Source: a virus. From it: a stretch of 36,846 bases of DNA. Positions 2,994 through 36,840 of this stretch are shown here, piece by piece. The position numbers and the translations under genes were made by a program. Below the pieces are notes generated by a model that ran no database searches, was not told the DNA's origin, and saw only the letters and a list, made by a program, of their open reading frames with translations. The stretch covers positions 1-36,846 of the IMG/VR virus record IMGVR_UViG_3300025674_000146. One strand, given 5' to 3'. How positions within the stretch are numbered: the first letter of the stretch is position 1; each line of letters begins with the position of its first letter.

Positions 2994-3275
2994 TCAGGCG
3001 CAGGAGGGTCCTGGCTGATGATCCGCATTTGCGGAGTTCTTAAGCTCTCTCACGTCTGTGAGGGCTGCGTTGTACCCGTCTAGGTACCCGTCGTCGTAGG
3101 ACGAATCGTCGGCAAGGATCGCATCCACCCTCTTGTCGTGCTCCTCATGGGAGATGACGTAGGGCGAGTCGATTACGACGGCGATGATCTCTTCGATGGT
3201 GAACTCATCGGGGACTTCGATGTTCAGGGTTTCAAGGTGGCGCCTTGCCTGTACCGAGATGAAGTCGACGATCAT
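2994..3275 (-). CDS. Hypothetical acidic early protein
   Basis: I do not recognise this 93-residue acidic protein. It contains a predicted helix (VPDEFTIEEIIAVVIDSPY) and a Tyr/Asp-rich patch (SSYDDGYLDGYNAAL) near residues 57-72. An AAGGTGG ribosome binding site lies before the ATG. In the 29 bases between this gene and the resolvase stop, an 11-codon frame (MTYVTSKVGNP) overlaps both neighbours by ATGA. It may be a coupling leader or chance. Confidence 0.7.
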   Translation of the reverse strand: MIVDFISVQARRHLETLNIEVPDEFTIEEIIAVVIDSPYVISHEEHDKRVDAILADDSSYDDGYLDGYNAALTDVRELKNSANADHQPGPSCA

Positions 3276-33217: not shown

Positions 33218-33424
33218 ATGCACTACGGCTACACCTACAGCCCCGCTATCGGCTACAACACCGACCAGCGGTTGGAGCAGTTCACCTGCAAGGCCGACGC
33301 CTACGGCTACGCCTTCGCTTGCGAGTGGCTGATCGGACGGACCGCCCTTACCGGCTCCGCCCGAATCGAACCGGCCACCGCCGCCCGCATTCTGGAGCGG
33401 TACAACGAACGGCTCATTGGCTAA
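33218..33424 (+). CDS. Small hypothetical protein (68 aa), first operon gene
   Basis: This 68-residue protein starts MHYGYTYSPAIGYNTDQRLE. It is alpha/beta, with one amphipathic helix ending ARILERYNERLIG. The family is not recognised. The ATG lies 8 bases after GGGAG, the ribosome binding site that is also the 3' strand of hammerhead stem III. A tRNA-like element begins 8 bases after its stop. Confidence 0.65.
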   Translation: MHYGYTYSPAIGYNTDQRLEQFTCKADAYGYAFACEWLIGRTALTGSARIEPATAARILERYNERLIG

Positions 33425-33431
33425 GAGAGAC

Positions 33432-33491
33432 GGCGCAACGGTTCAACCCGGGTTCGATTCCCGGGGCGCCACGATCTGCCACAAGGGCAGA
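33432..33491 (+). repeat. tRNA-like minihelix plus hairpin, copy 1
   Basis: GGCGC (33432-33436) and GCGCC (33466-33470) enclose a T-arm: CCCGGG, loop TTCGATT, CCCGGG, as in tRNA GGUUCRAnnCC. The D and anticodon arms are missing, replaced by a short linker (AACGGTTCAA). A second hairpin follows, TCTGCC/GGCAGA (33475-33491), then AAGGGAG and the ATG of the ArdC-like gene. In this copy the second hairpin has U-A and an extra pair where copies 2-5 have C-G. Confidence 0.8.
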
Positions 33492-33512
33492 CACCACAAG
33501 GGAGAAAACACC

Positions 33513-34427
33513 ATGAGCAAGCATGACGAATTGGCGCAGACGCTGGCCGAGACCCTCATCCGAGAGATCGAGAACAACCCCGGCCAGTGGTCCAAGCCCT
33601 GGAAGGCCGACGGCCTCGCCAGCTACCCCCACAACGTCACGACCAACAAGCCCTACACCGGCGGGAACGTCTTTGTCCTCTTCATGATCGGCAACGCCCG
33701 GGGCTACGCGACCGGGCAGTGGGCAACTTTCAAGCAGTGGAACGCCGCCGGCTGCAAGATTCGCAAGGGAGAGACCGGTACCAAGCTCGCCCGCTGGAAC
33801 GTCGTCTACAAGCACCCCGGCAAGGCCAAGAGCCAGAGCAAGGCGTGCTGCACCGAGTGCAAAAAGACGATGATCCCAACGACCTTCACCGTCTTTAACG
33901 CTGCCCAAGTCGAAGGCGACGTGACCGCCGCCCCTGACTTCCCCACCGGTCGCCCTGCGACCCTCCCGGGGGCCGATGAGGTCCGGGCCTACTTCCAGCG
34001 GGTCGGCGCTGATTGGCGAGAGGTCGCCAGCGACGGCGCCTACTACGCACCGGGCGGCGACTACATCGTCACCCCTAAGGCGGAGCAGTTCGCCACCGTC
34101 GGCGGGTTCGCCGGGACCGTGGCTCACGAGTTCACCCATTGGACCGGCCACGCCGACCGGGTGCCCCGGGACCTCTCCGGCAAGTTCGGGAGCGAGTCCT
34201 ACGCCTTGGAGGAGCTGGTAGCCGAGCTTGGCGCGGTCATCATCTGCAACTTCCTGGGGCTGGAGCATCAGCCGCTGGAGACGCACGCCGCCTACCTCGC
34301 CAACTGGCTGCAGGCTCTCAAGAGCGACGAGGGTCCCGCCCTTCTCTGGAAGGTGGCGGGCAAGGCTTCCAAGGCTGCCGAGTTCATCACGGACCGGGCC
34401 AGCGATGCCGAGGCGGTCGCCGCCTAA
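33513..34427 (+). CDS. ArdC-like antirestriction protein with metallopeptidase domain
   Basis: This 304-residue protein combines an N-terminal ssDNA-binding-type domain (residues 1-130, ArdC N-terminal, with WSKPWKADGLASYPHNVTTN) and a C-terminal zincin-like metallopeptidase. The zinc motif is HEFTHWTGH (205-213), with a second acidic site in SYALEELVAELGA. An extra CCTEC (112-116) may bind metal. ArdC-family proteins protect incoming DNA from type I restriction and are carried by plasmids and phages. The ATG at 33513 is used because AAGGGAG precedes it; an upstream frame runs through the tRNA-like repeat. It is the only large gene of this operon. Confidence 0.85.
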   Translation: MSKHDELAQTLAETLIREIENNPGQWSKPWKADGLASYPHNVTTNKPYTGGNVFVLFMIGNARGYATGQWATFKQWNAAGCKIRKGETGTKLARWNVVYKHPGKAKSQSKACCTECKKTMIPTTFTVFNAAQVEGDVTAAPDFPTGRPATLPGADEVRAYFQRVGADWREVASDGAYYAPGGDYIVTPKAEQFATVGGFAGTVAHEFTHWTGHADRVPRDLSGKFGSESYALEELVAELGAVIICNFLGLEHQPLETHAAYLANWLQALKSDEGPALLWKVAGKASKAAEFITDRASDAEAVAA

Positions 34428-34437
34428 AGAGTGACAC

Positions 34438-34496
34438 GGCGCAACGGTTCAACCCGGGTTCGATTCCCGGGGCGCCACGATCCGCAACAAGGCGGA
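34438..34496 (+). repeat. tRNA-like minihelix plus hairpin, copy 2
   Basis: The 39-nt minihelix (34438-34476) is identical to copy 1, with T-stem CCCGGG/CCCGGG and loop TTCGATT. The following hairpin is TCCGC (34481-34485) with GCGGA (34492-34496), which differs from copy 1 by a compensatory U-A to C-G exchange. AAGGAG and the ATG at 34519 follow. It starts 10 bases after the ArdC-like stop. Confidence 0.8.
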
Positions 34497-34518
34497 CACC
34501 AACAAGGAGAAAGACATC

Positions 34519-34704
34519 ATGACCATCGCCAACTACGGAGACGGCAACGGATACGACAGCGAGTGCGCCGACTGCGGCACCCCCGGCCTTGCCGGACGGT
34601 ACCCCGACGACATCGCCCGGGACCTTAGTCGGATGGGCTGGATCATCGAAGGCGAGGACGACGGCGTGACCTACGCCGACGCCTTCTGCCCCGCTTGCCA
34701 GTAG
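34519..34704 (+). CDS. Zinc-ribbon small protein (61 aa)
   Basis: This 61-residue protein starts MTIANYGDGNGYDSECADCG and has two CxxC knuckles, CADC (16-19) and CPAC near the C-terminus, with an acidic helix (DDIARDLSRMGWII) between them. The last gene of the operon (36475-36654) has a similar plan: a GWIIEGEDDG/GWIVDHDSYA segment between two CxxC pairs. They may be diverged copies. Probably binds zinc. Unknown target. Confidence 0.65.
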   Translation: MTIANYGDGNGYDSECADCGTPGLAGRYPDDIARDLSRMGWIIEGEDDGVTYADAFCPACQ

Positions 34705-34714
34705 GAGAGACAAC

Positions 34715-34773
34715 GGCGCAACGGTTCCTCTCGGGTTCGATTCCCGGGGCGCCACGATCCGCAACAAGGCGGA
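34715..34773 (+). repeat. tRNA-like minihelix plus hairpin, copy 3
   Basis: The minihelix (34715-34753) has T-stem CTCGGG/CCCGGG, so a U-G wobble replaces the C-G of copies 1 and 2, and the linker reads AACGGTTCCT. The T-loop TTCGATT and acceptor-like GGCGC/GCGCC are unchanged. The hairpin TCCGC/GCGGA (34758-34773) and AAGGAG follow. Confidence 0.8.
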
Positions 34774-34797
34774 CACCAACAAGGAGAAAGACACCCC

Positions 34798-34974
34798 ATG
34801 TACTTCCACATTTACAACAAGCGGCTCGGATACAGCCAGTACGTCACCACGGACCACGCTAAGGCCCTTTGGGTGCTGGACAACTGGTCCGAGAGTAGGG
34901 ACGGGGAGGAAGGAAACTACCGGCTCATCACCAGCAACGATCCGGACCTAGACTTCCGCACCCTCTACTTCTAA
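34798..34974 (+). CDS. Small hypothetical protein (58 aa)
   Basis: A 58-residue frame starts MYFHIYNKRLGYSQYVTTDH and ends DLDFRTLYF. It is aromatic-rich and compact, with strand-helix-strand features (KALWVLDNWSESRD). The ATG follows AAGGAG at proper spacing and the stop is followed by copy 4 of the repeat. Small aromatic-rich proteins of this type are common counter-defence candidates, but no family is recognised. Confidence 0.6.
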   Translation: MYFHIYNKRLGYSQYVTTDHAKALWVLDNWSESRDGEEGNYRLITSNDPDLDFRTLYF

Positions 34975-34981
34975 GAGACAC

Positions 34982-35040
34982 GGCGCAACGGTTCCTCTCG
35001 GGTTCGATTCCCGGGGCGCCACGATCCGCAACAAGGCGGA
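34982..35040 (+). repeat. tRNA-like minihelix plus hairpin, copy 4
   Basis: The minihelix (34982-35020) is identical to copy 3 (T-stem CTCGGG/CCCGGG). The hairpin is TCCGC/GCGGA (35025-35040). The spacer to AAGGAG has a few extra bases (CAACACCAC). It starts seven bases after the stop of the previous gene. Confidence 0.8.
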
Positions 35041-35064
35041 CAACACCACAAGGAGAAAGACACC

Positions 35065-35343
35065 ATGACCATTACCAAGCGCAACGTCGAGGCAGCGTTC
35101 GGGCGGTACGTCAAGGCGTGCCACCGTCTCGGGCTTGTCCCCGAGGGCGCCAGCATCGGCCTAGAGTACGGGTCCAAGACTTACGGGCAGAGCTTCAAGG
35201 TCGTCACGATCGACCCCGACACGTCCGAGCGTCGCCCCCCGGCTGGCAGTATGCATATCGGCATGACCAAGCGGGAAGCGTTCGACCTACTGGCCGACCG
35301 AGCCAGCGTCCTAGAGGACGTGGCCCGAGCGATGGGGAAGTGA
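35065..35343 (+). CDS. Small hypothetical protein (92 aa)
   Basis: This 92-residue protein starts MTITKRNVEAAFGRYVKACH and has a helix, a beta segment (GQSFKVVTIDPDTSE) and a C-terminal helix (KREAFDLLADRASVLEDVAR). AAGGAG precedes its ATG. The layout resembles small DNA- or protein-binding accessory products. Family not recognised. Confidence 0.62.
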   Translation: MTITKRNVEAAFGRYVKACHRLGLVPEGASIGLEYGSKTYGQSFKVVTIDPDTSERRPPAGSMHIGMTKREAFDLLADRASVLEDVARAMGK

Positions 35344-35349
35344 GACAAC

Positions 35350-35408
35350 GGCGCAACGGTTCCTCTCGGGTTCGATTCCCGAGGCGCCACGATCCGCAAC
35401 AAGGCGGA
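35350..35408 (+). repeat. tRNA-like minihelix plus hairpin, copy 5
   Basis: The minihelix (35350-35388) has T-stem CTCGGG/CCCGAG, so the U-G wobble of copies 3 and 4 has become U-A. Across the copies the same pair reads C-G, U-G, U-A, the path of compensatory change. The hairpin TCCGC/GCGGA (35393-35408) and AAGGAG follow. Confidence 0.82.
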
Positions 35409-35428: not shown

Positions 35429-35566
35429 ATGAAGAACCCGGCTACCGCTCCCGCCCTCGAAGACTGGGGGTATGCGCTCTGTAAAGAATGCGGCAGAGCG
35501 TTTGATCTGCTCGACGCCGAGGACGCCGAGGACTGGTATCACGGGCACGATTGTGAGGCGTCATGA
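35429..35566 (+). CDS. Small Cys/acidic protein (45 aa)
   Basis: A 45-residue frame starts MKNPATAPALEDWGYALCKE and ends WYHGHDCEAS. The CKEC pair and the later HGHDC could form a zinc site. Its stop overlaps the next start (ATGA). AAGGAG precedes it. Unknown. Confidence 0.6.
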   Translation: MKNPATAPALEDWGYALCKECGRAFDLLDAEDAEDWYHGHDCEAS

Positions 35567-35682
35567 TGCGGCGAGTCTGCGACGCCTTGTTCGTCGCCAG
35601 CGTCACCGCCGCCCTGGTCCTCGCCGTCGTCGTTATCTACAACAACGTCACGGACCCGGCAGTCTGCTGGACTTCCTGCTGA
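35563..35682 (+). CDS. Small membrane protein (39 aa)
   Basis: A 39-residue frame starts MMRRVCDALFVASVTAALVL and continues AVVVIYNN, then ends AVCWTSC. It has a positively charged N-terminus, one transmembrane helix and a short cysteine-containing tail. It overlaps the gene before it by four bases, so it has no repeat in between. A small membrane effector is possible. Unknown. Confidence 0.6.
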   Translation: MMRRVCDALFVASVTAALVLAVVVIYNNVTDPAVCWTSC

Positions 35683-35745
35683 ACCGTGCGGGTGACCTAC
35701 CCCTTCCTCTCCCTGAGGGGGTAGGCATCCCGGACTGTTCAGTCC
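35683..35745 (+). repeat. Second intergenic RNA element, copy 1
   Basis: After TGA comes ACCGTGCGG. A stem CGGG (35689-35692)/CCCG (35729-35732) encloses hairpin CCTACCCC/GGGGTAGG (35696-35725), and GGACTG/CAGTCC (35732-35745) follows. Compared with copy 2 the CGGG/CCCG pair is compensatory with CGGA/TCCG. AAGGAG and the next ATG follow. Confidence 0.65.
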
Positions 35746-35766
35746 CACCTAACAAGGAGAAACACC

Positions 35767-35931
35767 ATGAAAAACCATATGCATGACTTCCCGATTGAGT
35801 ACCTAGAGGAAATCCGCGACACCGTGCGCGGTGAACTACTCAAGCCGCACCTACTGACCGTCAAGCAACAAGCCGAAAACGGCATCGCACTAGCGGAAGT
35901 TACCGCCGAACTGGAACGGCGCGAGCGCTGA
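35767..35931 (+). CDS. Small helical protein (54 aa)
   Basis: A 54-residue frame starts MKNHMHDFPIEYLEEIRDTV and continues with charged helices to ELERRER. An AAGGAG site precedes it. The mix of acidic and basic helices suggests a dimer or protein inhibitor. Unknown. Confidence 0.6.
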   Translation: MKNHMHDFPIEYLEEIRDTVRGELLKPHLLTVKQQAENGIALAEVTAELERRER

Positions 35932-35987
35932 ACCGTGCGGATGTCCTACCCCCTTCGAGGGGGTAGGCGTTCCGGACTGTTCAGTCC
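35932..35987 (+). repeat. Second intergenic RNA element, copy 2
   Basis: This copy has CGGA (35938-35941)/TCCG (35971-35974) around a long hairpin CCTACCCCCT/AGGGGGTAGG (35945-35967), then GGACTG/CAGTCC (35974-35987). The stop codon of the gene before it merges with the element (TGAACCGTGCGG), as in copy 1. AAGGAG and the ATG at 36011 follow. Confidence 0.65.
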
Positions 35988-36010
35988 CAACTAAACCAAG
36001 GAGAAATACA

Positions 36011-36654: not shown

Positions 36655-36666
36655 AAGGTGCGGGTT

Positions 36667-36690
36667 GTCTCCGACTGGTGGGTCGGAGAC
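36667..36690 (+). terminator. Stem-loop after the accessory operon
   Basis: GTCTCCGAC (36667-36675) pairs perfectly with GTCGGAGAC (36682-36690) around a 6-base loop. A T run (TTTTTACG) lies about 10 bases downstream. It follows the last small gene and faces the convergent early operon, so termination is likely. The first arm recurs without its partner at 36726. Confidence 0.6.
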
Positions 36691-36714
36691 TTCCCCGGAC
36701 TTTTTACGCCGCCG

Positions 36715-36840
36715 CCAGCGGGGTTGTCTCCGACTGGTGGTAGGGTGAGTTCGCGTGGCCTCCGTGCCCGGTCTGCTTTTCCTTTCTCCTTTGGGCGGGC
36801 TGGGGTGCGGGGGCCACGCCCATTTTTGCGCCCATTTTTG
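36715..36840. repeat. Terminal direct repeat, right copy
   Basis: These 126 bases equal positions 1-126. The last six bases of the window (36841-36846) do not match the left copy; here the CCCATTTTTGCG tandem unit continues. The copy number of this short repeat may vary in the population. Confidence 0.9.

Follow-up and report, generated by a model that had tools for sequence, protein, structure and literature searches.

The window, by which we mean the whole stretch of viral DNA analysed (36,846 nucleotides, positions 1 to 36,846 of IMG/VR record IMGVR_UViG_3300025674_000146), encodes a terminase (phrog_38) together with a tail gene set, and one of its structural proteins shares 28-31% identity with proteins encoded by Streptomyces phages, Stella and Dennebes among them. 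A rightward operon on its plus strand codes for an ArdC-like anti-restriction protein and several small proteins. The first gene is an ORF of 68 amino acids (33218..33424), without match in PHROG, whose stop codon lies just ahead of the first of five copies of a 39-nt element. There follow the ArdC-like protein (33513..34427, 304 amino acids, with ArdcN and MPTase-PolyVal), a called ORF of 61 amino acids (34519..34704), an ORF of 58 amino acids read from the sequence (34798..34974), one of 92 amino acids that resembles phrog_24182 in the PHROG comparison (35065..35343) and, 3' of the fifth element, an ORF of 45 amino acids also read from the sequence (35429..35566). The five elements lie at 33432..33470, 34438..34476, 34715..34753, 34982..35020 and 35350..35388, all on the plus strand and 7, 10, 10, 7 and 6 nt, respectively, past a stop codon, in agreement with the positions and the short spacing that had been described in an earlier note on this DNA. 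When phage records were searched at the DNA level for the operon, no match was found.

Each copy is built of GGCGC, AACGGTTC, NN, a 6-nt stem strand, the loop TTCGATT, the opposite 6-nt strand and GCGCC, and its core, GG-N9-GGTTCGATTCC, has five occurrences in the window and none in 100 shuffled versions of it. ViennaRNA predicts one fold common to all five copies, namely a 5-bp acceptor stem, a 6-bp T-stem and a 7-nt loop, with folding energies between -17.5 and -20.5 kcal/mol. The lowest of these values belongs to element 1, which combines the acceptor GGCGC/GCGCC with the linker AACGGTTCAA and the T-arm CCCGGG-TTCGATT-CCCGGG, is followed by a discriminator-like A at 33471 and scores 58.3 bits with the covariance model described below. 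The core of element 2 is identical; element 3 has the T-stem CUCGGG/CCCGGG, element 4 is recognised by its fold and by the covariance model, and element 5 has CUCGGG/CCCGAG. Comparison of the copies bears out the earlier reading of one variable T-stem pair, which is C-G in copies 1-2, U-G in copies 3-4 and U-A in copy 5. On the predicted fold, the element is a miniature tRNA mimic, having an acceptor stem, a T-arm and a D-loop-like GG, and no anticodon. The 39-nt fold of the earlier picture is confirmed, and three things had been missed: the occurrence in other phages, the conserved, D-loop-like linker AAYGGUUY, and a larger repeated unit of 86 nt. This unit consists of the minihelix, an unpaired ACGA, a second hairpin, AAGGAGAAA with a ribosome-binding site and then ATG. 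The second hairpin of unit 1 (33475..33491, UCUGCC-ACAAG-GGCAGA) starts 4 nt past the acceptor; that of unit 2 lies at 34481..34496 (UCCGC-AACAAG-GCGGA), and those of units 3, 4 and 5, identified by folding, at 34758..34773, 35025..35040 and 35393..35408. Its stem is UCUGCC/GGCAGA in copy 1 and UCCGC/GCGGA in copies 2-5, the third pair being U-A in copy 1 and C-G in unit 2, and this difference is a compensatory change.

Several other features of the region can be mentioned here. Between genes 3' of element 5 lies a different repeated intergenic element (35678-35755 and 35927-35994), which forms long imperfect hairpins with 27-nt arms and has GGACTGTTCAGTCC and a ribosome-binding site identical to the element units. 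GTTGTCTCCGACTGG repeats occur near the right end of the window (36662-36752), where the copy has a hairpin with TTTTT behind it, perhaps a terminator, and at about 3090-3210 in a related phage contig (L040). No tRNA genes occur in the window, while Stella and Immanuel3 (L226 and L227), its relatives among the Streptomyces phages, have arrays of 21-22, and the weak 20-bit matches of the covariance model in these two phages turned out to be true tRNA genes.

The related contig L040, which was also recovered as L006, has six elements and an ArdC protein that is 68% identical to that of the window. In both phages an element lies upstream of ArdC, and a protein similar to the 92-residue product of the window also comes after an element in the relative. 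The loop, linker and acceptor are unchanged between the two, whereas the T-stems of the relative are wholly different (GAGGG/CCCUC, CUGAGG/CCUCAG and CAGUGG/CCACUG). Because stems vary in this way between phages, a strict pattern anchored on GGCGC found no viral match. Of the stem pairs, the core pattern AAYGGTTY-N6-GGTTCGATTCC prescribes the inner two of the T-stem alone, without selection for pairing beyond them; it matched at least 119 stretches of IMG/VR, compared with two for a scrambled motif. Among the 109 distinct viral matches listed, most differ in their stem sequences; even so, a T-stem with at least three of the four further pairs forms in 107, and in 91 it is joined, at the expected offset, by an acceptor of 5 bp. 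When the arms were swapped among these matches, the T-stem formed in 18% and both stems in 2%. An alignment of 39 sequences has two-sided changes at all five acceptor pairs and at the four outer T-stem pairs, with 98.8% of its cells paired and 177 cells changed on both sides, compared with 50 in shuffles; since this alignment was pre-selected for pairing, the unselected count of 91 among the 109 listed is the stronger evidence. The earlier note had made its structural reading depend on covariation in a larger alignment, and such covariation is present. A covariance model made from 40-nt members only, the length of the element varying by one base, retrieved many contigs with several copies, contig counts being different from counts of independent lineages.

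These data bear directly upon the idea that the repeats act as DNA, be it as the core of an attP site, as a tRNA fragment left by integration or as a recombination repeat. Phages often carry the 3' ends of tRNA genes, and repeats within a genome can recombine; yet there are five to ten copies per genome, they follow the sense of transcription just past stop codons, and both their stems undergo compensatory changes, which contradict such a role because what is kept in a conserved DNA site would be the sequence rather than the pairing. An integration site is expected once per genome, whereas the window has five copies with differing stems, and no integrase was noted among the proteins searched. 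We thus consider a function at the DNA level most improbable; the earlier note would have been refuted by elements that occur only as DNA recombination sites, which these data contradict.

What is the position of the elements with respect to genes? Statistics on the distance from stop codons were taken from annotated phages, namely the isolated mycobacteriophages Cuke, Fowlmouth, MrMiyagi and Indlulamithi, which have about 7-10 copies each, none of them annotated in the stretches viewed. The 33 elements of these four phages are all oriented with transcription and lie mostly 8-11 nt, typically 9 nt, past annotated stops, and the placement directly behind stop codons within operons thus applies there too; in 29 of them the next annotated start is 35-52 nt downstream. 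The starts are distant in the remaining four, where some genes have been annotated across an element, which may reflect start-codon errors. A few loci deserve separate mention. In L087 (1726-1987, minus strand) three elements about 111 nt apart lie opposite an ORF of 1200 nt, at odds with the intergenic pattern, and a 7-kb Lachnospiraceae contig (L194, 496-6927, minus strand) has about nine elements, most with the T-stem GCAAGG and with varying acceptors of up to 7 bp. One viral contig (L069) has, some 226 nt on the 3' side of a tRNA-like element, a Pistol ribozyme (981-1046, 61.8 bits), so a self-cleaving RNA and a tRNA-like element do occur together, and in an Epilithonimonas prophage (L105, 3167-3199) the DUF805b motif of Rfam lies immediately 3' of an element.

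The elements might also be an RNA signal to RNA polymerase, which could work by antitermination in the manner of the put RNA of phage HK022, a precedent, or by termination. Stem-loops do recur along the operons, but TTTT follows within 12 nt in just 8 of 202 elements, and for want of T-runs we rejected an intrinsic terminator; moreover, rules of the T-loop kind have no known role with polymerase. A polymerase signal is therefore very doubtful, only somewhat less so than a function as DNA.

The elements are widespread. Their hosts include Bacteroidota, Actinomycetota, Lachnospiraceae and Treponema, and this spread over phages of several phyla suggests that a universal host factor is involved. 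A set with one genome per species (257 Gb) yielded only 55 matching stretches, 44 with both stems, and IMG/VR contains some of these as well, as prophages of Chryseobacterium sp. Leaf404, Epilithonimonas mollis and E. xixisoli. In the archaeon Haloferax marinum there is a single element (L163, 5475-5514, minus strand); it forms both stems, has a second hairpin and an ATG downstream, and lies in a context that is not evidently viral. With the covariance model, there was no match in phages T4, lambda, phiC31 and phi29, and only weak matches in T7 and D29.

The resemblance to tRNA is most precise in the elbow. Counting loops in multi-copy contigs, with stems and linker GG required and the loop left free, we found TTCGATT 67 times, TTCGACT 8 times, and TTCAACT and TTCGAGT 4 times each, all in accordance with the tRNA T-loop rule UUCRANY. 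Scanning with A at position 57 produced 10 matches, 7 of which form both stems, while C or T at 57 produced four, with both stems in one, and any other base at position 56 (D56) produced none. The GG is retained in many other linkers, for instance ATCGGCAACCT, TTTGGAATATA, CTGGTAGTTTC and AAAGGCATACA. This evidence needs to be qualified, for the main scan fixed linker and loop, and conservation there rests mainly on the survey of other linkers and on the loop-variant scans. In tRNA, G18-G19 of the D-loop dock on T-loop bases 55 and 56. The linker is 9-11 nt long and its GG is positioned like G18-G19, so that AAYGGUUY most likely stands in for the D-loop; by analogy, its GG would dock into the T-loop. 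Together, the stem covariation seen in many phages, adherence to the T-loop rules and the retained GG strongly support selection on an RNA fold that mimics the acceptor/T-arm half of tRNA, and the selection on RNA structure that had been proposed from the window copies thereby extends to a family.

Which factor would recognise such a fold? Identical elbow features would be recognised by factors such as TruB, TrmA, EF-Tu, the CCA-adding enzyme or the ribosome, and the element might serve as their platform or decoy, for regulation rather than for cutting of mRNA. Repetition between successive genes and the precise spacing past stop codons better suit a cis-acting operon signal, and we regard the platform or decoy role as improbable. 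Alternatively, the element might remain uncut, as a compact tRNA-like block, an obstacle to exonucleases or an insulator between adjacent cistrons, which would either stabilise the 3' end of the upstream message or act as a barrier to readthrough and coupled reinitiation. A very stable stacked fold directly past stop codons would suit such a block, and hairpins in this position are common stabilisers; stability alone, however, needs neither a UUCRANY T-loop nor a GG kept across unrelated phages. Among the alternatives to cleavage this one has the best prospects, even if it seems unlikely.

The explanation towards which we lean, by a small margin, is that these compact mimics of the tRNA elbow are cut by host RNase Z, RNase P or both, thereby separating cistrons. 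The 3' strand of the helix measures 11-13 nt, near the 12 of tRNA, the acceptor/T stack is about 12 bp, and the tail follows the consensus A-C-R-A, being ACGA in 35, ACAA in 28 and ACCA in 3 of 202 elements (the GG served as a filter for these counts). The elements therefore offer what RNase Z uses in its substrates, namely an acceptor/T-arm, an unpaired discriminator and no CCA behind it. CCA blocks bacterial RNase Z, and its rarity here fits RNase Z cleavage. They also have the acceptor stem, T-stem and T-loop that form the core of a minimal RNase P substrate of the AT1 type. Apart from the three ACCA tails, they lack a 3' RCCA, with which RNase P RNA pairs and which E. coli RNase P prefers, so RNase P alone is less likely. 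By analogy, then, processing by RNase P or RNase Z would fit a stacked helix of 11-12 bp, an unpaired discriminator base and the scarcity of CCA. Further evidence comes from the 28 nt past the acceptor, which at 196 sites fold with a mean z of -1.42; z is below -2 at 40% of the sites, compared with 7-10% in four control stretches; strong second hairpins usually start 1-5 nt past the acceptor, most frequently 4. Stem-loops at the 5' end are a known kind of mRNA stabiliser, as in ompA.

The mechanism would thus be as follows. In polycistronic phage mRNAs, just past stop codons, a 5-bp acceptor stem would stack on a T-arm of 6-7 bp, with no anticodon arm, while the GG of a single-stranded substitute for the D-loop would dock into the T-loop, and the host enzymes of tRNA maturation would recognise the result. 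A cut by RNase Z after the discriminator base is the most likely event, and RNase P might cut at the 5' side. The upstream message would then carry a tRNA-like structure at its 3' end, and the downstream one would begin with about 3 unpaired nucleotides followed by a stem-loop and a ribosome-binding site, so that cistrons would be separated and both ends stabilised. The fold, its covariation, the T-loop rules, the GG, the place after stop codons, the second hairpin and the wide occurrence in phages are observed, whereas the docking of the GG, which enzyme cuts and how mRNA stability is affected are what we infer in this scheme; more generally, phages probably use host tRNA-processing enzymes to cut or protect messages. 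Against cleavage we count the ACRA tail, which could have another role, the weak second hairpins of some elements, in which a strong one is missing, and the many phages, such as T4, lambda, phiC31 and phi29, that show no element.

In comparison with known systems, the elements share with canonical tRNAs the UUCRANY rules and the stack of about 12 bp, but not the cloverleaf with D-arm and anticodon arm, and ARAGORN found no tRNA gene in the window and 45 element-bearing loci. The tRNA-like domain of tmRNA has an acceptor, a T-arm and a stemless D-loop, without anticodon arm. The elements have in common with it the acceptor, the T-arm and the lack of an anticodon arm, while being devoid of an mRNA-like domain, and neither the window nor ten element-bearing loci have a tmRNA match at the gathering score. 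Every Rfam family stayed below its gathering score on the elements; in the window, a weak tRNA-like match came from mascRNA-menRNA (RF01684) alone, to elements 1 and 2, with a non-significant 18.2 bits (E 2.8), far below the 42.5 bits of the gathering score. The mascRNA and menRNA, 3' elements of MALAT1 and MEN-beta, are cut by RNase P and RNase Z. They also have a reduced tRNA-like fold, placed at the end of a longer RNA, but belong to animal non-coding RNAs, are longer and retain a rudimentary anticodon arm. The AT1 minihelix substrate of RNase P comprises acceptor, T-stem and T-loop (PMC11143913), the same core as in the elements. Other substrates of this enzyme, such as phage M3 RNA, the phage-derived antisense C4 RNA, the TYMV tRNA-like structure and his operon mRNA, are single cases, whereas the elements recur as a covarying family whose linker has GG and whose tail is not RCCA. 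An intergenic mimic of the T stem-loop in Brome mosaic virus RNA3, known here from the title of a cited reference (B11 in PMC5723415), is instead a single-copy replication enhancer of a plant RNA virus. Among actinophages, the SAS/ESAS of cluster K mycobacteriophages (13-bp GGGATAGGAGCCC and 17-bp inverted repeats; PMC3203893) and the CR repeats of cluster M are likewise short, numerous and intergenic, lie upstream of starts and in some cases have stem-loops; the elements differ from SAS/ESAS in sequence and fold, and in the cluster M phages Rey and Bongo the covariance model found short T-arm-like pieces and no full-length element.

Taking the viral and organellar precedents together, tRNA-like viral RNA structures and tRNA punctuation are already known, while a widespread, repeated and anticodon-less version in DNA phages appears to be new, no description of the family having been found in the open-access literature. 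We put at about even the chance that dsDNA phages of many bacterial phyla, perhaps also viruses of archaea, have in common a widespread RNA family, as yet without a name, through which the tRNA-maturation enzymes of the host are recruited and operon mRNAs are cut into single, stabilised messages. If so, a common signal of phage gene expression, present also in phages of the laboratory host M. smegmatis, has been overlooked by annotation; it would tie phage mRNA processing to universal tRNA enzymes, help to account for how the expression of many small genes in phage operons is set, and provide a natural minimal tRNA-elbow module for studies of RNase Z and RNase P. It would also constitute the phage counterpart of mitochondrial tRNA punctuation, built from anticodon-less tRNA elbows: in both cases tRNA-type structures lie between cistrons and would be excised, but mitochondria use functional tRNAs for this, and phages a non-coding minihelix with no anticodon, whose cleavage is putative.
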